NCBI RefSeq assembly: GCF_000003605.2
Contig: NW_003124895.1
Coordinates: 316,254-351,827 of the forward strand
Origin: Saccoglossus kowalevskii
Taxonomy: Eukaryota > Hemichordata > Enteropneusta > Harrimaniidae
Length of the DNA stretch: 35,574 nt
Direction: 5' to 3'
Positions 4,136 through 29,167 of the stretch are shown here, piece after piece. Each line of letters opens with the position of its first letter. The first letter of the stretch is position 1. The notes beneath the pieces are model-generated. The model was not told the origin of the DNA and searched no databases. It saw only the letters and a list, made by a program, of their open reading frames with translations. The position numbers and the translations under genes were made by a program.

Positions 4136-5446
4136 ATGGAAGGTAAACGTAGCCGTGGACGTCCACGCAAGCCTCAGATTCTGAATTTGTCTTCACAATC
4201 TCCCAGCAGACAAGAATGGAGAGAAGAAAATAGTCTTTCACCATCGGATCCGAAGATTTCAGAAATATCTGCTGTTCCAAGAGAAAACAATAACACAGAT
4301 ATAGACTTCAAAAAAAAACGTGGCCCAGGCAGACCAAGAAAATGCCCAACATCAACGACCATTGCCAAGTCCCCATCACAGCTAGAAACAGTACAGTCAT
4401 CTGCACTAGATGGACCAGGAAGCCTTGAAGAAAAGCATGGTCCCGGTCGTTCATGCAAGTCTCAGACTGATAATGATTCTCCTGACATTGGAATAACATC
4501 ATCAATGGCAGATTTGATGATTTCATCACAGTCATCACAGGATGAAGATTGTGTGAGTAAATGTAGAGATGAAGTTGGTGGTGACAGTGATGTGTATTGT
4601 GGCAGACGAGGAACAAGTAGGAAGATTGGTAGGCCAAGAAGAGGGCGAGGAGGAAAAGGTGGGCAGAGTCCTTCAGCATCTTATCAGGAGTATTGTGAAC
4701 ATGATGCAAAAGTAAAAGAAGAGAATAATTCATGGATAGACTCCAATAGAGGAAGAAGACGTGGTCCTGGTAGACCAAAGAAATCTCCTGTGTTCACAAC
4801 AGCTACAGAAACTCCACTAGATTTAGAAACTGGACAACCCTCGTCATTAGTTCATGCGGAGAGCATGGAAGGAAAATATGGTCGTGGTCATCCATGCAAG
4901 TCTCAGACTGATAATGATTCTCCTGACATTGGAATAACATCATCAATGGCAGATTTGATGATTTCATCACAGTCATCACAGGATGAAGATTGTGTGAGTA
5001 AATGTAGAGATGAAGTTGGTGGTGACAGTGATGTGTATTGTGGCAGACGAGGAACAAGTAGGAAGATTGGTAGGCCAAGAAGAGGGCGAGGAGGAAAAGG
5101 TGGGCAGAGTCCTTCAGCATCTTATCAGGAGTATTGTGAACATGATGCAAAAGTAAAAGAAGAAGATGCATTGCAAGATGACTGTACCAAGGCAATCCCA
5201 CAAATTGAACGGCGTAGTAGTAGCAGAAGAGGTAGACCCCCATCAGCACTGTCTCTACAGTTTCCATTAAGTTATAAGCTCTACTCGATTTTTGAGGAGC
5301 AAATTCGAATTCAGAAAAAAAAATCTGCAGAATCAACTAAACTAGTTGGGCAAATTGAAAGTATGATCCTGAAATATGCCAAGAAAAAGCCACAGTTTGA
5401 AAATATGAAAACGTTCCACAGTGGTAGTCACTTTGAGAATTTAAAG
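4136..5446 (+). CDS. Exon 1 of the AT-hook/cGAS-like gene: AT-hook region, spine helix and GS motif
   Basis: It encodes residues 1-437 and ends in phase 0 at an AAG|GCAAGT donor. AT-hook cores lie at 4157-4165 (RGRPRK), 4328 (GPGRPRK), 4628 (GRPRRGR), 4769 (GPGRPKK), 5069 (GRPRRGR) and 5231 (RRGRPP). Residues ~375-425 look helical and basic, fitting the spine helix that precedes the nucleotidyltransferase core. The last 10 codons carry the GS motif. Unspliced, the frame runs six further codons to a TAA at 5465-5467, giving a 443-aa AT-hook protein without the enzyme. Confidence 0.85.
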
Positions 5447-8400
5447 GCAAGTAGTACGAACTCATAAACATGTTCACTGAACTGTCTTTTTTGTTGTTGG
5501 TATATTGTTTGTAATTGCATAGATCATTCATTGAATTTTACCATGCTCCACCATCATTAGGTAAAGGGAAAGTATATGAGTAGAACATGTCTGTTCTAAT
5601 CATTGTTGTTACTGTTGTCTCTTTGATTATCATTACTCGAAATATTTTATATGATCAACTTTAAACCTCCTAGTCAATCATAATTTAGTGCAAATCATCA
5701 AAAAAATAAATAGGAAGAAAAATATAAGACAGATACAATTTTGAAGAACCAATAGAACATAATTCTGTAATTTGGTCGTAAATTGAGTACAAAAGTCTGC
5801 CAAATAATCACTTGGTCCAAATTTATTAAAAGCAAACATTCTCACATTAAAAGAAATATGAATAATAAATTATGTTATACATTATTATGATGACCATATT
5901 TTTCTTTGTTAATGTTCGTATTTACTGTAAAAAATGAGTTTGACATGAACCTTTATTCTAACTTTGACCTGCAACGAAAAAATGATTGTATCAAGCAGCT
6001 TTTTGCTAGTAATATCCAGATTCTCAAGGGATTCGGTTTTTACACTATGTTTCATTTTACTATGTTTTATTTTTCTTAATGACATTATACAAATTCATAT
6101 CCTAGTCAATCTATGTATGCCCAGACAATAACTTACTTATTACTAATATTAATTATAATTATATTATATTATTGACCATTCTGTTTTAATAGGTCTCAAG
6201 TCCAGATGAACTAGATATAATGTTTGAATTGGCTGCCACGGGAACATGTGAGAAGATTAATGACCCCTTAGACTGCCAATGTTTCATGCGACTACAATTG
6301 GACCAATCTGATGCCTTATTTTGCTATTGTAAAGATGGTTATCTTTCACCTAAGCTACTTCTAAAAGCTTTCAAAGGGGTGGTGTCAACTGCTATAAAAC
6401 ATATGCATTATCCAGGTATTTTCACATTACATGTATGTTGTATATAAGTATTATTGTTCCAGGCAACAATTTCTGACAACGTTTTGATATATAAATGCAA
6501 ATAATGGTGGTGCAAATGTTGCATTTTCCAATTAACATGTGGCCATCCATAGGTTAACCTCTGCTTGTCAAAAACAAAGACTCATCAATGAAATTCTAAA
6601 ATGACAGTCTTTATTTTTAAATAAAGAGTTATCATGAATTCCTAAAATTCATTTTATATTTATTAACAGATATCAATGTTAACATATTTGTACCCGATGA
6701 CTCAGATGGCAGTCCCTCAGTTCAGCTACAAATAACAGAAAAACCAACCGACAAATTTCTCCTTGATGTTGATCTTGTGATTGCTATTGCGATAGACTGT
6801 AAACAGTGGCCTGCTGGCTATGATTCTTGGATACTATATCCCTGGTTTTCTCAAGACGAAGAACTTGAACTGAAAAAATGTCCCTTTCACCTTGTTGCAA
6901 AATCTCCTCCTCCAGGCAAGTTAATATGTTCACTCACGCACATTTATTCCTCTCTCCCATTTGAGAGAGATTGGCTCAAAACATATCAAAAGCATTTTAG
7001 CTCTGTTGTCGACTTTGTCGAACGGAGCTTATCATATGAGTGATTGTCTGTTGTCGTCTGTGTTAACTTTTTACTTTTTCGACTTCTTATTGAAACTACA
7101 AACTTGAATGCTTTGATACTTGATGTATATGTACCTTGTGTAGACCTTTTCTTCGATTTGTTCGTTTCATGATGTTTCCTTTAATTCTCTAGTTTTGGTG
7201 AATATTTTTGGTAAAAAGTGATATTTTCGACTTCTTGTTAAAAACCGCAAGTTCGATTGATTTGATTCTACATATATAGGTACTACATGTTGACCTCTAA
7301 GATTTGTTCATTTTGTGATGATATATTCAATTCTCTAATTTTAATAAATATTTTTGTAATTTATGGTAAAAAGTAATATTTTCAACTTCTTGAAAACCGC
7401 ATGTCGGATTGATTAGATGTTATACATATATGTACCTCAGGTAAACCTCTCTCAAATTTGTTCATTTTCTGTTGATATCTTCAATTCTCTAATTTTATGA
7501 ATATTTTTGTCATTTTTGGTAAAAAGTGATATTTTCGACTTCTTGTTGAAAATCGCAAGTCTGATTGCTTTGATACTATACATATTGTTCATTTCTCTAA
7601 TGATATCTTCTGTTCTTCAATTGAAATGTGCATTACTAACAGCGTAGTTATCTCCTTGTTTTTCTCGTGGCACCTTTAGATTTTTTAAATTCGATAATGT
7701 GCAATACATTATTCCTAAGGTCCAAATGAGTACTTTAAACTATGAAGACAATGTTGTATATTCATAATATCATGATGTGCATCAAACTGATACATTTCAG
7801 ATAAATATAGTTAGCCATTTTACATAACTATTAAAAGATGTCAGTCGAATTGTATGCATATGACACCTCCTTTTGATGGATATTAAGTATTATACATATA
7901 TATAATGAATGAGAGTAATATCTAACTAAATACACCAGTATTGTTGTTTTTCAGATCTACATGACCCAAGACGGGCCACAATGTGGAGAATATCATACTC
8001 ATTATTGGAAAAGAAGATATTATACACAACTGACTCTAAGGGCAGACAGCATACCTACGAAGGAGAAGATGACCTCAGCGGTACAACTTGTCGTAAGCAA
8101 TGCCTTCGTCTTCTCAAGTTGCTAAGAATGAACCTTTTGAAAAAGATAAACAAACGATATCACGATTCAGTTCCTTCTTATTTTCTAAAGACAGCATTTC
8201 TACATGAATGTTTAAGAATGCCAAACTCAGAGGATTGGACAAAGGAACACCTTCATGAGAGGATTGTACAGTTGCTGGAGTATATTGTAAACAAAATTCG
8301 AAGAGGAGAATTGCGTCATTTTTTTATTCGCAGTCACAATCTTATGAGCTCACTGCATTCTACGACTAGGCATGAGCTTGTGAAACACTATGTACCAGTG

Positions 8401-8451
8401 CTTAAAGACCTCACAGATGGTTCGCTTCACAAAATATTCAATCTTGAGTAG
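4136..8451 (+). CDS. AT-hook / cGAS-like (Mab-21 family) nucleotidyltransferase, 4 exons, 758 aa predicted
   Basis: Exons 4136-5446, 6193-6415, 6670-6915 and 7955-8451 join in phases 0, 1 and 1 to give 758 aa. The start is the ATG at 4136 (A at -3, G at +4), with an in-frame TAA at 4118-4120 just upstream. Residues 1-370 are low-complexity, basic and Ser-rich with GRP-core AT-hooks near 8, 65, 165, 212, 312 and 366. The C-terminal part reads as a Mab-21/cGAS fold: HSGSHFENLK across 428-437, PDELDIMFEL at 441-450, DVDLVIAI at 544-551, then WRISYS at 604-609 and CRKQCLRLLK at 639-648. G430/S431, E443/D445 and D546 match the GS, ExD and third-Asp metal site of cGAS. Such enzymes make cyclic dinucleotides that activate STING; whether this one does, and on what ligand, is inference. 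The AT-hooks suggest a nuclear or AT-rich-DNA-binding protein. No AATAAA is seen within 250 nt after the stop. Confidence 0.85.
4452..4722 (+). repeat. Exact 271-nt coding duplication, copy 1
   Basis: It is identical by eye to 4893-5163, offset 441 nt (147 codons, in frame). It encodes residues ~106-196, from CKSQTDNDSPDIG to HDAKVKEE, including one AT-hook. The sequence upstream of each copy (an AT-hook of GPGRP type plus linker) is clearly related but diverged, so the 441-nt unit is a mosaic. Confidence 0.95.
4893..5163 (+). repeat. Exact 271-nt coding duplication, copy 2
   Basis: Partner of 4452-4722 with no substitution seen. It encodes residues ~253-343. Absence of even silent changes means a very recent duplication, gene conversion from copy 1, or an assembly error. 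Confidence 0.95.
5447..6192 (+). other. Intron 1 (GC-AG), AT-hook/cGAS-like gene
   Basis: The donor is AAG|GCAAGT, which matches the strong consensus of GC-AG introns, and the acceptor is TTTTAATAG. Joining restores a continuous GS-to-ExD active site, which supports the intron strongly. The 746 nt are AT-rich and hold no recognisable gene or element. Confidence 0.8.
6193..6415 (+). CDS. Exon 2: ExD catalytic motif
   Basis: It enters after TTTTAATAG in phase 0 and begins VSSPDELDIMFEL, placing E443 and D445 exactly 12 and 14 residues after S431, the same spacing as S213, E225 and D227 in human cGAS. It ends in phase 1 at CCAG|GTATTT. The middle is Cys-rich (CEK, CQCF, CYCK), and FKGVVSTAIKHM near the end is typical of the Mab-21 family. 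Confidence 0.85.
6416..6669 (+). other. Intron 2 (GT-AG)
   Basis: The donor is CCAG|GTATTT and the acceptor TTAACAG|AT. It is 254 nt, phase 1, with nothing recognisable inside. Confidence 0.75.
6670..6915 (+). CDS. Exon 3: central strand with third catalytic Asp
   Basis: It enters after TTAACAG in phase 1. It encodes residues 512-593 with LLDVDLVIAIAI (third metal-binding Asp at about residue 546), then a WP, a W and FHLVAKSPP, the Mab-21 pattern at the junction of the two lobes. It exits in phase 1 at CCAG|GCAAGT. Read-through reaches a TGA at 7041-7043; the nearby GT at 6920 would create a stop at once after joining exon 4, so the GC donor is the one that keeps the frame. Confidence 0.83.
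6916..7954 (+). other. Intron 3 (GC-AG), AT-hook/cGAS-like gene
   Basis: The donor is CCAG|GCAAGT and the acceptor GTTTTTCAG. It is 1039 nt, phase 1. A tandem-core repeat element (6999-7660) fills most of the first 750 nt, its terminal hairpin starting only 83 nt after the donor. Confidence 0.78.
6999..7660 (-). mobile_element. Tandem-core repeat element, copy 1 (in intron 3)
   Basis: Read on plus, it starts with a hairpin (AGCTCTG 6999-7005 and CGGAGCT 7023-7029, one mismatch). It continues as about four imperfect units of ~145-155 nt containing GGTAAAAAGTGATATTTTCG, ACTTCTTGTTGAAAA, TTGTTCATTT and TCAATTCTCTAATTTT, and ends near ATTGAAATGTGCATTACTAA. It is the reverse orientation of the 21-kb copy. 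Layout resembles Helentron-related HINE/pearl elements (tandem core of ~155 bp between hairpin-bearing ends). Confidence 0.7.
7955..8451 (+). CDS. Exon 4: Mab-21 C-terminal helical lobe
   Basis: It enters after a T-rich tract ending TTTTTCAG in phase 1. It encodes residues 594-758: WRISYSLLEKKIL, a short loop with H626, then CRKQCLRLLKLL, SYFLKTAFLHEC, an EDW, and a C-terminal helix run ending FNLE-stop. These are the characteristic motifs of the Mab-21/cGAS C-terminal lobe. The vertebrate zinc-thumb ligand set is incomplete: H626, C639 and C643 are present but no adjacent Cys pair is visible. Confidence 0.87.
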
Positions 8452-8712: not shown

Positions 8713-9171
8713 AGCTCCGTTGTCGACCAGATCTTATCATATGAGTGACTTTCCGTCGTCATATGTGTAAACTTTTTACTGTCACGACTGTATATGTACC
8801 TTGGGCAGAACCCTCTTAAGCTTTCTCATTTCTCATTTTTTTGGTAAAAAGTGATACTTTGGACTTTTTGTTGAAAACCGCAAGGTTAATTACTTTGATA
8901 TTATGCACATATGCATTACAAGTGGACCTATATCAGATTTGTTCATTTCATGATGATATATTCAATTATCTAACTTTGATGAATATTATTGTAATTTGTG
9001 GTAAAAAGTGATATTTTTGAATTCTTGTTGAAAACAGAAAGTCGACTGCTTTGACGCTATACATCTTGCGTAGACCTCTCTCAGATTTCTTCATTTTCTA
9101 ATGATATCTTCAGCTCTTTAATTGAAATGTGCATTGTTAACAGCAGATCTATATCAGCCGAGCAGCTGCTT
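8713..9171 (-). mobile_element. Tandem-core repeat element, copy 2
   Basis: Same family and orientation as the intron copy. It begins AGCTCCGTTGTCGACC, has two to three core units, and ends TTGTTAACAGC...CAGCCGAGCAGCTGCTT, the complement of the opening of the 21-kb copy. It lies 260 nt after the stop of the AT-hook/cGAS-like gene and may affect its 3' end. Confidence 0.7.
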
Positions 9172-13131: not shown

Positions 13132-13889
13132 TTAATATGGACATACATATGAAAGAAACAAATCAACTTGTTGCGGTACTATCGCCTGCATATGAACATG
13201 GTTGTTCGTATAATGTGAAAGTGACATGTCATAGACATCAAGAAATCGCACACCAATACCAGTGAACAGTTTTCGCGTAATAGAATTCATCTCAAATAAT
13301 GTCCAGTCACTACTGTGAACGTAGCCCTCCCGTGAATTGTGATCTCTAGGATGGGAACTCTTGATGACAACTATAGTTCCAGGGCATCTAGACAGTAACC
13401 GCTCAACGGCATTTCGTGTATGGAGAAGTCGTTCTGTGAATGACTTTGTTGTCCACGGGCCAAAGTGATAAGTTAAACTCAAGACGACTACGACGTAACA
13501 TGAACGTAGGCTGTCAATCACACCAGATTCAAATCGTTGATTTTTAAAATCGCCATTACTTGAACCAATCCTAATTGCATGGAATTGGAACAAAATTGTT
13601 AAATTATAATCATGACTGGTCAATAGACGATGTGCACCATCTCTAGACACTGTCATATTCATATCTCCGACATTAATAAAGGAGTCATGCCATAATCGAA
13701 GAGTTGAATCACCAAAAAAGTACACATCTTTCCCACGCAGACAATCAAGTGCTTCTTCCATTGTAAAATGCCTGCTTTTACAAACGAGCGATTGCCATAT
13801 ACTTCCATTAATCCAGAAACCATCAGAAATACTAACAGGAAACTCAGCATTGCAAGGCGGAAGGTTTTCGATCAAGCTATTTGTATCTC
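13132..13889 (-). CDS. NXPE terminal exon: PC-esterase domain
   Basis: Acceptor TTGTTTACAG, entering in phase 1; stop TAA at 13134-13132. It encodes ~252 residues: PPCN, SDGFWINGSIWQSLVC, the block I box CLRGKDVYFFGDSTLRLW (GDS codons at 13713-13705), LTYHFGPW, TIVVIKSSHPRDHNS, and DVYDMSLSHYTNNHVHMQ near the C terminus. Confidence 0.92.
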
Positions 13890-16800
13890 CTGTAAACAAT
13901 ATATATGGTGAGATATATGATGAATAATGTATAGTGTGTCTTTGTGGATGTCAAGAATGTACAAAACACATTAGTATTATCTCTAGAGTATTTATGAAAG
14001 TGAAGGAGTGAGAAGCGCTCGTGAAACAGGGGAATAAAATAAATAACAAGTTACATCTAAAAAATGTACATCAAAAGCATGAGTATGTATATGCATGTTA
14101 TTTTGAGCAGAAACATAGATTGATCACTAGTAACAATGGCCAACACTCAATAGCTCTGTTATTCCTATTGCACTCATGAGATATACCCATACAACTTTGT
14201 TATAAACCTGCCAAGTAATCAGCGACAGAATATGCTGTCTTCTGCAGTTATAAGAGTCAAATCTGGGTGTTACTGGCCATAATTTCCCTGCTATTAACTT
14301 GAATGCAAATGACATGAAACTACATTGTAGGTAAATGCACAACACAGTGGGAGGGCACCTCAATGTCCTACTACTACAGATCTGGTCTTACCTTTAATTA
14401 TAGCCTTCAATGGGCTTGATGCTAGTTTAGTCATCAGATACGGGCTGTATAAAAAGTCACAAATTCGATAAGATAATTGGGATTGTAGCATATACAATAT
14501 AAATATATGGCTACCAAGTATTGAAGTCGCATTGCGTAGTTTGCCACTATTAGGCTAATAATTCACCCAGCACAATAATAATAAATATACTGAATAGAAA
14601 AGGAATTCAGGTAAATGTATCAGAACAATAAGTACCATATACAAGCTGGGAAGTAGACAATGCTGAAGGGCGATAGTCGTCGCGCCACGCATGCGCGAGA
14701 TATTGGTCTTATAAACAAATATGGTGATTTTGACTGTGGCGCACACCAACTAGTACACACTGGGACGTTACTAAGCGTTAATTAGGTATTTTTTTGTTGT
14801 GTTTGGAAGGTATCAAAGGAGTTGTCGTCAGTAATTAGTGCAAGTTGTCAAATCTCATATTTGTGATTTCCATTAGAAGAGCGCATTGGATTGTGGGAAA
14901 ATCAATGTCTGTCAACACAATTGTCGCACATGCGCGGCGCGACGACTACCGCCCTTTAATATTGCAGCTCAATAATTGGTTAGTAAAATAATATGTGTGT
15001 GCACATCATATTTGTAAACACTGTATCACTTACTGAAATGTGTCAGATGACTAATTATATCTAGTCCACCAAAATAATAAAAGTCACAATAATTTCGATA
15101 TGAATTATATGAGTTAATATTACAATGTCAACAAGAAAATTGAATTGAGAAACACCTGGATATTGTTATTGTTAGTTCAGCAAAGCAGCTTGTTATAAAA
15201 TGCAAAATAATAATTCCAATCACTAGTAGTAGATATTACAGATTTGCTGACACTCAGTGAGCATTGTTCACCAACCGCAAACAATAACATTAATAGCCCT
15301 ACCAGCCAATCAAATTCATTCATTTGCTATAGTCAATATAATTGAACATCAACTTTCCAGTGGTCAAATGTGTTGTAATGTCAAATGGTCAAATGTGTTC
15401 TATGTAAATACTTGTAATTGGAAAATAAGCATACTGTAAAACCATTTATTTTCACTATTTTGATGTTTTGAGGATATTCACCGTGTTTAAATTCAGGCAT
15501 TTGTCAAAAAAACCACAAGTTTTACAATTTAATTGTTATTTTACATGTTAAGGTAGAGATGCAGGTTGGGAGACTATATTTCTAATTGGCTCTAATTACT
15601 GTAATTACACGAGTAATATATAACCATTACCCATTAAGTTATATATCATTTGAAATAGCTTAATTTAAACTTTTGAGTTTTATGGTTTATAATAATGTAC
15701 TCTGATACCATATTAAGTGGTGTGGATTTTGGGTTAAAATCATACATTTTAGGTGAAAGTGCACTTAAAACTAATTAACTTTTGAATGCATACCTTGATT
15801 TTGATTTAAAAACACTTATTTAAAACTTCTGTTTACTATGAACATAATGGCTTATTTATTAGTGTTTCCATTGAAACGTTTTTACACAGTGCACTTTGAA
15901 ACATTAAAATTTTATGAATCGTTCACAATTAACATAGCCGCTAATTGGCAGCTCTATTATTTCTGTTCCAATGAAGACAGTGAAACCATACGAAGCCACT
16001 TACTTAGAATAGACCTGAATAATCACCGCTGAAAACAAATGAACCGTCTAGAAGTTAANNNNNNNNNNNNNNNNNNNNNNNNNNNNNNNNNNNNNNNNNN
16101 NNNNNNNNNNNNNNNNNNNNNNNNNNNNNNNAAAAGAAACTCATAGAAATACACCATAAACCGAAATTTGCTGATGTTAAATCGCCAGGTACAAAAAATA
16201 GAATAAAAATATTTACAATTCGAGGGAAACAGACAAAAAATCGTCCGCGAAGTCATAACTTTGCGTGAAAACTGTCATGGCGTCGTGTTATCAGTTTCGC
16301 TGAGGGAGGGGCACAATGGATTACGTAAAGCCGATGAGATATTCATACAGTTATATAAACATCGCCATTGGGTGGGTTGAGTCTGAATTCACCTTCCCTC
16401 AAAAAAATACTTTGTAAATACTAAATAATAACTTTATTGATTTCGTATCCTTATTGGGATCTTGAAAATAATACAATAAAGAATGTTGTTTAAATAAACA
16501 ACAGCTAGCTAAAAAAGTATAAGTATGAGGATAAGTTATGTTCAGTGAACAGTTTAATCCTCTCCTCTTGGTGTAGTTTGCATTTTAGCAGAAAGTGTTT
16601 CTCGTCTTCGACTTCACAGACTTTGCATTTTCCATGATCAATGTCAATATTTTTGTACCGCCCCATTTCTATCTGCAAGGTGTGGGCACTTATACGTAGT
16701 TTTGTTAGGGCTGAGCGATGGTTGGGATTTTTAACTACTGTTAGATATTTTTCATAGGTGTAATCCTTTTTCAGTAATCTGTAGGTTTCAAGTTTGTTTT

Positions 16801-18226
16801 TTTGATTTTTAGATTTATTGTCATCATACATGCTGTTTTCAGCGACTGTTTTAAAACGTTTAATGAGTCTATCTAAAATTGGATGAAGTAGACTGTAATT
16901 GCTGTTATGTTTACATTGTGTCCATGCGTCACCAAGGTCTAGAAAGTTTAGTCTGGTTTTTATTCCTGTTACCCAATTTTGTACGCCTGCGTCATCTAGC
17001 TGAATGCCCAGCTCAGGACTAATGTATTATGATCCATGTCGTTTAATCGCATCCAATATTTCAGCATTTGCCTTATACTTGAGATGACAAGTGGAAGCCT
17101 ACCAAGCTCAAGCAAGCATGCTAAATTTGTTGCGTTGCTGTAATGAACCATGTGAAGTTAGACGACCAGGTTGAAATGGGCCGTAATATTTTGCTACACA
17201 ACGGCTATTCGCAGTTTTTACTACTCAATCACCCAAACGCCGGTGAAACAAATTCGAAATGAAGTCACAGTGGAAGAGTTAATTGTTAATCGGGGCAGTT
17301 TTCATACAACTACAGACGAGACGGGTCGATAGAAATTAAACGAACTCTGACCTCGGGAAATACCTCATTCATAGAGTGCCTTAGTACCAGATGTCGCCGA
17401 TCACGGTCATACAACGTACCTTATCGCTACCGGTGCATGCTGGCTGACAAGGGGGTTTCCGATTAAGGTAACCAAGATGGCGTCGCAGAGTGCATGATTT
17501 TTCCGCGTCTCGTTGCCAATTTTTCTGTAATTTCCAGGGTATTTTTTTTTTTATTTTTAATTAACCGAGCATTTTACGTTTGTGTATTTTGACACTGAAA
17601 AGTTAGTTATCGATGACAGCAACAGCAGTGTTGTTTGTCAATTGCATCACAATTCCATCAGCACGGTAATCATTACATCGAAACGAAAAATAAGTGTTAA
17701 AATGCCGTTTGAGTAAAACTGTGTGGAAATTTTTTTTTGTTTCTCCCACAATGTGAAAAAGCTTGAAATCTATGCACTAAAAAAACAAAAAGAAATGGTG
17801 GTCTTGTTTTGCACGAAAATCAAATTGCCCTATCGAGGCTTCCTCCTACATGAAAATAAATAAAAAATCAAATTATTTAAGGGTGAAAAGTTTACTTATC
17901 ATTTACAACTGTATGTTTTGTTTCATTACGCTTGCAAGCTGGAAGCGTATACGTCTTTTTTCTTTTCTTTTTTATAGTTTGCTAGTTGATCGAGCTTGAG
18001 GTAAGTAAACAGAGAGCCAGGATAGGAAGTCGCACACCGCTGCTCCGTAACTGATGCCAGCAATCATTTGCATATAACATCAACAGTGACTTGTCAATCA
18101 AAGAGCAACGCAAACAAACTTTCGGGACTTTTAATCACATAAGCGTACCTCGGTTCGATTTTTGAGTATGTTCTAACATTGACAATGCTCCGAAAATTTA
18201 ACACTATCTAGCCAAGACTGTCTGGG

Positions 18227-18258
<32 letters not shown>

Positions 18259-21200
18259 CTCACTCTGAGTGCCCACGAATCTGCATCTCTAACTTAAGGT
18301 AGATTTAATTTAGCTGATTTTACTCAACAGTGAAATTAAAACCCAGTGAATAATTGATGCATTTACAGTAGTTATATATTTCAGTACGTAGATACTAGGT
18401 CACCATATTGTGTACCAGTAGTAAAACATAATACAGGATTTGGTGACGTCATATATAACACTGCTTAGTGTTTCTATTTATTTCATTAAAGGGCAGTGGT
18501 CGTTGCGCCACACATGGTCAAGATATGGGTCTCTTACAAACAAAGATGGCGATTTTGACCAACCAAGTACGAATCAAGACGTTACCAAGCTTTAACTAGG
18601 TAATTGATTGGTGGTTTGAAGGTAACGATGGAGTCGTAAGCTGTAATTAGTGCAATTTCATTAAAAAAAAGTGCATTGAATTGTGGAAAATCAAAGTTTA
18701 TCAATACAAACATCTTACATGCTTGGCTTGACGACCAATGCCCTTCATAATAATTGTATGACTTATAGTGCAGATAAATGAAATTGTTCATTTCATCAAA
18801 TACATGTTGTTTTATTGCATTTTCTCTTGTTTTAATGGGCACAGTGGGCACTCACATAATTCGTCAACATCACCTTTTGGAATTTGTTATTTTTAACTAT
18901 GGCAAAGAAGATCTTGCCTATTAAAAATGGGATATATTCAGTAAAATAAAGCAAATATTGACAGTATAATAGAGTATAAATTAAGATTAATCATACTTTA
19001 TGTTATACTATGCAAATATTATTCATCTATAAATGCAATTTTAATCTTTGTGACCAGATGTACCGGGTAATATTACAATTCAATTAAACAATCAATTACT
19101 CTTATAGTACCATATATTAATGACGATCTAACTTACCTTTCAAACAAGTATTTAGTGTTATACTGTGAAATACTTAGATTGGCGTAGTATCCAAGGGAAT
19201 CACGGTTATATTTTATCAACTCTAGTGTTTCACAGGAAAGATTTTTAGGTTTCTCGCATAAAAATACCGATTCTCCCAAGTTACTGTTACTGAACTCACA
19301 CTTGTTCTCCCATATAATTTTACTGGAGATATAACATGATGTGATCTCTTTCGATGTGTCATCTTTGAATGTACCGAACCAATTTATACACTGTTCTTGA
19401 GGGAGATAGAATGTCTTCAGCCAAGTAACAGCTTCGCGTGTATGCACCAACGTTATGTCAATCATTGCCTCTCCCTTCCAAGCTTCATAAAAGTACACAC
19501 TGTATGTCCCATTCTGGTAATCAATAATTCTACCTGCTGTACTTGCTTTGGCTTGATTGAACATCACGGCAAAAAAGAAATCACCTCCAACTTGTCGTTT
19601 GATTCCCTTTGAATCATATGCTTCAATAACAACATGGACAACTTCATCCGCATTGCTGACCAACCAAAATCTGTTGACAAAAAGTCATTTACTGAGAGTA
19701 TGTTATCTAAAAATAACTCATGTACATGAATTGAAAGACTTATGTTCAGTATAATTGAATTATTAGTCAGTATAGTTGTGCGATCCAGTACTTTTATTTT
19801 GGTGAAATAATTATTGAAGTACCGGTATAATGAAAGAACAGAAGATTATAATATACCAGTGCATCAGCATCATGGACACATTATTGTGATTGGATGAGAC
19901 CATGTTTTAATCTATAAAATAATGCACTAGTACGCAGTGTAGTCTATGGGTTATTGTTCAAAGTCAGGCCCTAGAATATGAGTAACAAATATTGATACCA
20001 AAAACCAATCAAAGCGTAGAAAGAAGTACTGTGTGCTGAAAATAGTGAAGGACTATGAAGTAGAAATACTTGGTAGGTAATTTAAAATTAATTCAAAATT
20101 TAAGATTAGTCTTTCAAAAAAAGAGCAATGTAGACAACACATATAGGTTTGCTATTTGAGATGCATAACTTGAAATAATATGATTTCCAAAATTATTAAA
20201 GTTTATAATAGGCATAGGAAACAATTGTGATTGAACATTTTTTGATTTGCAGTCTGATTTATTCCAGTTTCAGTTCAATTTAAATCTGATATTTTCGGAT
20301 ATTAGAAAATAACTAATGAAAATTAGGTTTTTAACATTCAACTGATCATGTCCTTGGATTACCCAAGAGCATCTATGTACTAACATTTATTGAAATGAGG
20401 TAACTTGTATGCTTGAATTTCAATCCAAAACTAATCAGGTCTTAGCATGAGCTGTCAATCATTCTCTGTTCAGTACCAGTGGAAAACCATGTAATGTCGC
20501 GTGAGGGCGTTTGTATACAACTGTTAACAGTCCTCAGCCCCCCCCCCCGGCCTTCGCTGAAATGCGATTTAGTATACGAAAAAATTAAGAATGAGGACTG
20601 TCAACAGTCTATAGATGACAGAAGTACTGTAGGGATAAAAATATCATACCTAGATTTCCTAGGTGAAGTCATTCCCATAGATGTGAGTTTGCCTTTAGAA
20701 AAATATTGCATTTGATCCTCCTTATTATGCATATTAAATGCATCTGAAAGAACGTCATCCAACATACGACCAATCGATGATTGCACTTCCAATCCATTAT
20801 CATGTTTGCATGTTTTATATTTGACTGTCACTTTCATATCCGTTTCACTGATTTTATAAACCTACAAAAGTACATTAAACTCTTATTCAATATTCAATGC
20901 AAATACGGTAGCATCACACATGTATCAACAATTAACTCACACAGTACACTACAGGCAGTCCAAATAAACACCATCTGGCGGATACCAGTCCGAATATGTC
21001 ACTAAATACACAAGCAGCCTCTCGGCTGAGATAGCTCCGCTGTTAGCAAGGCACATTTCAATTACTAGTAGAGAATTGAAGATATCATCACAAAATGAAC
21101 AAATCTAAGATTGGTTCACATGAGGTACCTATATGTATAATATTAGAGCCATTAAACTTGCAGTTTTCAATAAGAAGTCAAAAATGTCACTTTTTACCAA

Positions 21201-27944: not shown

Positions 27945-28844
27945 GTAGCATTTTCGGACTATTTTAAGATTAATGACCAACACCTGTATTTGATACCAAA
28001 CATGTGCAGCTAGGTGCAGAATTAAAACACCTATAGTTTTAAAACTCTTGTGAGTTTGAGGGTAAAATACTGAAAAAAAATATTTTTCAACCGAAACGTA
28101 CATTTTTGACAGTCAAATTTTAAACAACTTTTGAAAGTTTGTAGTTTCTGATGGCTAGTGAAAAAGGTGAAGCTCTATATCCATACAGTGAATACTACAT
28201 ATAGCAAAAAAAAAGGTATATGGAATGCACTTTGTCCTATGTTGCTCCATGTTTACCGTGGAATGTCTGGGTCATATGCTTTCTGCAGAATCTCGTAATG
28301 AACAAATTAGTGCATGATGTATTTCTGATTTGCCAGTTAAAAAAAAACTGGTTTTACTGAATGAATGGCGTTTGAAACACTTGGCCATTAAAGATTCATT
28401 TCACACCAAAGATAGCTTTACTGGATAATGAATTACTGACGCCGAGATTTGTGGACGATGTAATAGCAGATTTTATTCACAATTACAGCACCAGACCATG
28501 ACTACTATGGTTTACACAATATCGATTAAATCACTTCTAATGCAATTTCTTTTTATTTTTATGTGGGTTTAATATTTCTTCTTCATCAGAAAAAAAACAC
28601 GTTAGGACTTCTTTTCTGGGGTAATAGATTTGCCAGCAGATGAGATGTTATATGTTCATTTTGTGTTTACATGACTTTGTTCCCTTTAGAAAGCATTTCT
28701 AAATTCGATTTCAGTAGCCTGTTTGACAATAGTTATCATGAACTGTATACAACCCCCAATTCCTTATGTTTTTAGGGGGTCAGTGGGAGGTTCTCTGTAG
28801 ATCATACACAGTAGGGATACACAATTAAAGGCCACAATTAAAGC

Positions 28845-28972
28845 GAGAGGGTCGTCACCTGCGCACGTGCGGGAATTGAGTCCCAAGCGACGATAACAAC
28901 ACACGCTAAAAACGCAAAGGCTCGTGGGTAGACGCTTGTTTGTAAACAACGACGCGCTATGGCCATCCAATT
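28845..28972. mobile_element. MITE-like element, family B, copy 2, right end lost
   Basis: It shares the left end (GAGAGGGTCGTCACCTGCGC) and interior with 9846-9982 in the same orientation up to the ATGGCCATC segment, after which the right inverted repeat is missing. Confidence 0.6.
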
Positions 28973-29167
28973 GCTTACCTGGGGTGGATTTCTTGTGGCA
29001 GTCATTTTCATAAGCGTCAAATATCGTCATAAATGTCATCAAGCTGCAAAAATAAAAATCGAAGACTGAGTTAGTATAAATCTACCCAAGCGCAATAAAG
29101 AAAGTGCATTGACGATGATAAATATGAGTATGGAAATATTACATATGTACCGGTTGCTGTAATAATA

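Follow-up and report, generated by a model that had tools for sequence, protein, structure and literature searches.

A cGAS-like nucleotidyltransferase gene with an AT-hook-like GRP tail in the hemichordate Saccoglossus kowalevskii

Results

A four-exon gene joins a GRP-motif tail to an enzyme core

The window analyzed here is a stretch of 35,574 nucleotides from Saccoglossus kowalevskii (contig NW_003124895.1). On the mitochondrial contig of the same assembly, COX1 is encoded on the strand opposite to the other large frames that could be named, a tRNA-Lys has the anticodon TTT, and AAA and ATA occupy conserved Lys sites of COX2 and conserved Ile sites of COX1, respectively. COX1 inversion, AAA = Lys, ATA = Ile and tRNA-Lys UUU are given for S. 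kowalevskii in PMC3121625, which makes this species or a near relative the most likely host. On its plus strand, at positions 4136-8451, lies a gene whose predicted product joins a long tail with repeated GRP motifs to a nucleotidyltransferase core of the cGAS type. The assignment of these positions to one gene of four exons and 758 amino acids was confirmed in the predicted model, whose 758 codons contain no internal stop or frameshift (Table 1). The start codon lies in the context AACATGG, with an in-frame stop five codons upstream. All six GRP cores, the spine helix and the GS motif are located within the single open exon 1, and the fusion of tail and enzyme is thus independent of any splice call. 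At the local stop rate, the probability of 437 open codons arising by chance is about 6e-12, a value computed after the frame had been seen. The initial annotation of this DNA had raised the possibility that exon 1 belonged to a separate gene; on the sequence, separate genes for the tail and the enzyme were rejected, since exon 1 encodes both.

Two of the three introns (1 and 3) have GC donors and intron 2 has a GT donor. A paralogue elsewhere in the genome (G000:C458:145000-154900, locus L024, minus strand), designated here the C458 paralogue, matches all three intron positions, including the one right after the GSxxExLK motif, with GT donors throughout, which supports both GC-AG calls. Across the first junction, the end of exon 1 (GSHFENLK) and the start of exon 2 (VSSPDELDIMF) align to GSYYEHVK-ISAPNEFDVMF of a cGAS chain.

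Table 1 Features of the gene at 4136-8451 of the window.
Feature	Positions	Strand	Basis
Exon 1: tail with GRP motifs (residues 1 to about 375), spine helix and GS motif (about residues 380-437)	4136..5446	+	open frame
GRP core 1 (KRSRGRPRKPQ), RGRP type	4157..4165	+	frame; Pfam AT_hook 12.2 bits on 20-residue piece
GRP core 2 (KKKRGPGRPRKCP)	4328..4336	+	frame; no Pfam match
Decayed hook position (KHGPGRSCKSQ; GPGRSCK)	4445..4453	+	repeat family D7
First copy, 271-bp identical direct repeat (spacing 441)	4452..4722	+	sequence comparison; compare repeat family D1
GRP core 3 (SRKIGRPRRGRGG)	4628..4636	+	frame; no Pfam match
GRP core 4 (RRRGPGRPKKSP)	4769..4777	+	frame; no Pfam match
Decayed hook position (YGRGHPCK; GRGHPCK)	4877..4900	+	repeat family D7
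Second copy, 271-bp repeat	4893..5163	+	sequence comparison
GRP core 5, identical copy of core 3	5069..5077	+	
GRP core 6 (SSRRGRPPSA), RGRP type	5231..5239	+	frame; no Pfam match
GS activation-loop motif, residues 430-431	5423..5428	+	frame; cGAS alignment
Intron 1, GC-AG, phase 0	5447..6192	+	C458 paralogue: GT donor, same place
Exon 2 with ExD (E443 6208-6210, D445 6214-6216)	6193..6415	+	frame; cGAS alignment
Intron 2, GT-AG, phase 1	6416..6669	+	
Exon 3 with third Asp D546 (6771-6773)	6670..6915	+	frame; cGAS alignment
Intron 3, GC-AG, phase 1	6916..7954	+	C458 paralogue: GT donor, same place
Exon 4: Mab-21_C helical lobe, stop 8449-8451	7955..8451	+	frame; Pfam

The core is a cGAS-type Mab-21 nucleotidyltransferase

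Profile and alignment evidence confirmed the predicted core as a cGAS-type Mab-21 nucleotidyltransferase with its catalytic residues kept and its C-terminal lobe intact. The Mab-21 domain proposed by the initial annotation was recovered by Pfam at residues 433-617 (7.1e-24, 85.4 bits, cut-off 24.1), and the C-terminal lobe, proposed to be intact, matched Mab-21_C at residues 639-738 (1e-21, 77.4 bits, cut-off 24.1). In a sequence search with the window protein, the best matches in the PDB were cGAS chains (4.9e-31). Chains named 'cGAS-like receptor 1' matched at 1.5e-23 for the better one and 1.2e-13 for the other, and the match to MAB21L1 (6.7e-13) was weaker than those to the cGAS chains.

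Residues were compared with the 507-residue cGAS chain of PDB entry 7bum in the printed search alignment, in which 95 of 346 aligned residues were identical. G430, S431, E443, D445 and D546 align with G198, S199, E211, D213 and D307 of 7bum; the GS, ExD and third Asp (about residue 546) read from the letters alone thus fall on the catalytic positions. The spacing from S to E is 12 in both proteins, as had been claimed by comparison with human cGAS. K350, R364, S366 and Y421 of 7bum are also conserved and, by numbering conversion, correspond to K362, R376, S378 and Y436 of human cGAS. The four human residues are named as substrate residues in PMC10855445.

The cGAS-like receptor (cGLR) criterion of PMC9980059, a GS motif with catalytic E, D and D at the cGAS positions, describes the window protein. 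The pattern given in that paper is h[QT]GS[X8-20][DE]h[DE]h[X50-90]h[DE]h; the methods section of the paper requires G[S/G] and [E/D]h[E/D]X50-90[E/D]. The first gap of the window protein (11 residues) and its ELDI and VDL segments fit the pattern; H428 in place of h, S429 in place of Q or T, and a second gap of 98 residues (maximum 90) depart from it. By hand count, 7bum also departs from it, with a second gap of 91 and N at an h position, and the exact letters are therefore not decisive. The isoelectric point (pI) is 8.4 for the core and 8.7 for the whole protein. Because cGLRs that sense double-stranded DNA (dsDNA) and those that sense double-stranded RNA (dsRNA) are both said to exceed pI 8.5 (PMC9980059), charge cannot decide the ligand of the core.

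The tail carries recurrent GRP cores in a duplicated segment

The six GRP-core motifs claimed for residues 1-370 were found at residues 8-10, 65-67, 165-167, 212-214, 312-314 and 366-368. Within residues 1-372, composition shuffles gave a mean of 0.29 GRP and a largest count of 4, and none of 20000 shuffles reached the six observed. When the recent repeat was collapsed, five GRP remained against a shuffle mean of 0.25, and again none of 20000 shuffles reached this number. By reading, all six cores are flanked by K or R, in agreement with the definition of an AT-hook as a GRP core with basic flanks, with RGR as the segment inserted into the minor groove (PMC11354804). The tail has low hydropathy, and Ser-, Asp- and Glu-rich linkers separate its short basic GRP motifs. 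A charge-hydropathy plot placed the tail (about 375 residues) among disordered sequences and the core among folded ones.

The tail consists of two units of 441 bp (147 codons each) and a leading copy of one hook segment. A block of 271 bp is identical in both units, and the 141 bp (47 codons) ahead of it have diverged, with a nonsynonymous divergence (dN) of 0.39, a synonymous divergence (dS) of 1.61 and dN/dS of about 0.24 (Fisher p = 3e-4, from rounded counts). An identical block beside a diverged one indicates an old duplication followed by recent conversion or by an assembly error. In the older halves the GPGRP core was conserved among altered neighbors, although the second hook there was altered as well. 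These values are a hint, and not proof, that the older halves have been kept as protein by purifying selection, since dS is near saturation and only 47 codons were compared. An origin of the tail from a transposon or multicopy sequence was rejected; among the best candidates scored in the S. kowalevskii genome, 257 tail residues and the exon 1 DNA matched this locus only. A PDB search with the same 257 residues returned one match, to an antibody chain (E 0.64), which was taken as chance.

A paralogue with a basic tail and other Mab-21 loci

The C458 paralogue encodes 562 amino acids in four exons and matches cGAS at 9.8e-37, more strongly than the window gene does. Its catalytic residues are kept by alignment, and its core is 29% identical (108/371) to that of the window gene. 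Its tail of 194 residues has a pI of 10.9, one GRP, and 37 basic and 16 acidic residues. Given the shared introns, this basic tail and its single GRP, the GRP array of the window gene appears to have been elaborated from a long tail of the cGAS type.

A profile search of the 572-Mb assembly gave 17 Mab-21_C matches on 15 contigs. Where the DNA was examined, GS...[DE]h[DE]h was present in one frame on contigs C4195, C939, C290 and C4225, besides the window contig and C458. Within the flanks examined, none of these four had a GRP ahead of that motif in the frame, and other exons may carry hook tails; isolated GRPs are present at other places in frames of C4195, C3169 and C4225. Contig C4195 (67 kb) has three Mab-21_C matches and one frame with GS...EFD, which may point to a few cGLR-like genes clustered at this place.

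Neighboring genes and repeats

An NXPE-type gene is represented by two frames on the minus strand (13132-13950 and 19133-19684; NXPE4_C 3.1e-51, Neurexophilin 8.1e-14); the nearer frame lies about 5 kb past the cGLR gene, and the two genes are convergent. AT-rich repeat units of roughly 150 bp (families D2-D6, D8 and D9) occupy 7015-7654, in intron 3, and 8720-9155, past exon 4, so that exon 4 sits between two sets of copies of the same family. For a 173-residue open frame with a CxxC...H...C stretch at 16505-17026 (minus strand), Pfam gave nothing at 0.01; on visual inspection, this frame looks like the terminal part of a non-LTR retrotransposon protein. Short frames of the type LFTNKRLP...SVCCYR...CAGDDP occur at 28764-29081 (minus strand) and on contig C1214 (L029 1083-1361) and, given these similar copies, probably represent a dispersed repeat. 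A search of the window with Rfam gave 0 matches.

Discussion

A tail that may tether the enzyme to DNA

With modest confidence, we favor the reading that this gene encodes a hemichordate cGLR whose tail tethers the enzyme to DNA or chromatin by its GRP motifs. The enzyme would make a cyclic dinucleotide, and the tail would play the role of the disordered N-terminal tail of mammalian cGAS, keeping the enzyme on nucleic acid, whether on nuclear chromatin or, in clusters, on long DNA in the cytosol. The hooks would provide many weak contacts in the minor groove rather than one specific sensor site. In mouse cGAS, the disordered N-terminal domain is reported to be an additional DNA-binding surface (PMC12116816), multivalent contacts of the cGAS N-terminus with chromatin DNA have been reported (PMC9496985), and the tail is described as steering the location of the enzyme (PMC12116816, PMC9496985).

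Several observations weigh against a DNA tether. Only cores 1 and 6 of the six carry RGRP; cores 2 and 4 are PGRP and cores 3 and 5 IGRP. At two more positions the hook has decayed and the GRP core is lost. Since cores 3 and 5 lie inside the identical 271-bp block, at most five cores are independent. No tested piece of the window scored above the gathering score of 17.4 for the Pfam AT_hook profile (PF02178). The best score, 12.2 bits for core 1 on a 20-residue piece, fell to no match on a 25-residue piece, and neither the pieces containing cores 2, 3, 4 and 6 or the two decayed positions nor the whole protein gave a match. Three of four other pieces of the same genome passed; these controls were picked by the same model and show that scanning short pieces works, not how often true hooks are missed. 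In a genome scan with PF02178, none of the seven candidates listed among nine scored lay in the window. Of the AT-hook array claimed by the initial annotation, then, the recurrent GRP with basic flanks stood, but most of the motifs resemble AT-hooks without being clean ones. The mixed core types, the decayed positions and the scores below the cut-off, set beside the published definition, make 'AT-hook-like array' a fair name. The net charge of the tail is also small (63 K+R versus 55 D+E in residues 1-370); with this near balance, and unlike the plain basic tail of the C458 paralogue, it is better pictured as basic motif beads on an acidic string.

Further points concern the enzyme core and its pathway. 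The core was compared with cGAS at 14 contact positions of site A and 12 of site B and the dimer face. Five of the 14 are identical (R158, K162, K184, K372 and K395), R161 and K399 are K/R swaps, and K151, K160 and R180 are not kept; none of the 12 is identical, with two conservative changes (R342 to K, E386 to D). The DNA-binding surfaces of cGAS are thus conserved only in part. The H-CC-C zinc thumb has lost all four ligands, H378, C384, C385 and C392 of 7bum each being replaced; C639 and C643 are present in this stretch, which has no CC pair. The initial annotation, which called the enzyme complete, had not noted the missing thumb. The corresponding Zn-ribbon is called essential for dsDNA recognition by human cGAS (PMC8410604). 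A genome search for STING (PF15009) gave no match, and no control matched either, so this search cannot show absence.

Alternative explanations

It is possible, although we consider it unlikely, that the tail mainly meets RNA, or consists only of import signals and linkers, and that the thumbless core answers to dsRNA. The tail contains KKKR and GRRR runs, which resemble nuclear-import signals. An extended AT-hook, in which GRP is accompanied by basic patches 12 residues away, is described as RNA-binding (PMC11354804), and the loss of the thumb has parallels: Tc-cGLR and the insect cGLRs shown in PMC8410604 also lack the Zn-ribbon, and Drosophila cGLR1 and the Tribolium castaneum cGLR respond to dsRNA (PMC9980059). 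The core of the window protein nevertheless keeps part of the site A basic residues, which argues against an RNA-facing role. The initial annotation had instead suggested an AT-rich-DNA sensor, in which the hooks select AT-rich foreign DNA and so switch on the enzyme. The recurrent GRP cores with basic flanks are consistent with this proposal, but it was weakened to the point that we regard it as improbable: RGR is absent from four of the six cores, no link is visible between hook occupancy and the active site, and the host window is itself 65% A+T (34.8% GC), which would make detection of AT-rich DNA a poor means of discriminating self from non-self.

The tail could also be a drifting repeat without a function of its own, attached to a working cGLR. 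Two hook copies have decayed, a block is identical in both units, and no relative of the tail was seen elsewhere in the genome among the best candidates scored. We nonetheless give this explanation little credence, as the older halves show a low dN/dS with a conserved GPGRP core (though the second hook there changed) and the long open frame is not expected by chance. Least probable of all, to our minds, is an artefact of the gene model or assembly, or a pseudogene. Two GC-AG donors speak for it, as does the exact 271-bp repeat, which can confuse assembly. Against it, a single exon encodes both tail and core, the C458 paralogue is spliced at matching positions with GT donors at all three sites, and the coding frame is uninterrupted.

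Returning to a tail that tethers the enzyme to DNA, a more specific and rather doubtful version places a cGAS-like enzyme in the nucleus, tethered to chromatin. The loose basic tail of cGAS would have been turned into a modular minor-groove array, its copy number shifting through duplication and conversion of repeats, and the array would act as a tunable tether on AT-rich chromatin until the enzyme is released to foreign DNA.

Comparison with known systems

Part of the answer to the open question of how cGAS tolerates host chromatin is held to lie in its N-terminal tail. A long tail (167 residues) is reported for vertebrate and lancelet cGAS, and very short ones, from <7 to 70 residues, for invertebrates (PMC10855445). 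Two hemichordate paralogues with predicted tails of about 375 and 194 residues would mean that long tails also occur in the group next to the chordates, and the window gene offers a motif-based tail that can be cut, counted and mutated. The main texts of PMC9980059, PMC10732462, PMC12424679 and PMC10855445 do not contain the term 'AT-hook', and among the matches listed by a full-text search, judged by title and the start of the abstract, no AT-hook cGLR was found.

Metazoan cGLRs share the catalytic residues and the two-domain build of the window protein. The gene differs from them in its added GRP tail: PMC9980059 gives 87% of cGLRs as having no added domain, and the extras it names are TPR, ankyrin and multi-cGLR fusions, with architectures below 0.5% lumped as 'Other'. 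AT-hook proteins such as HMGA resemble the tail in having several GRP cores with basic neighbors in one chain and in its position on the disordered side of the plot; they differ in that the window protein has RGR in two of six cores, no tested piece above the Pfam cut-off, and an attached nucleotidyltransferase. Vertebrate cGAS (CGAS/MB21D1), unlike the window protein, has a zinc thumb; the tail of the window protein carries GRP repeats and little net charge, and no residue is identical at the 12 site B and dimer positions compared. The likeness to vertebrate cGAS lies in the nucleotidyltransferase core and C-terminal lobe, in the catalytic and four substrate residues, and in a long N-terminal tail ahead of the spine helix, whose disorder in the window protein is predicted from the charge-hydropathy plot only.
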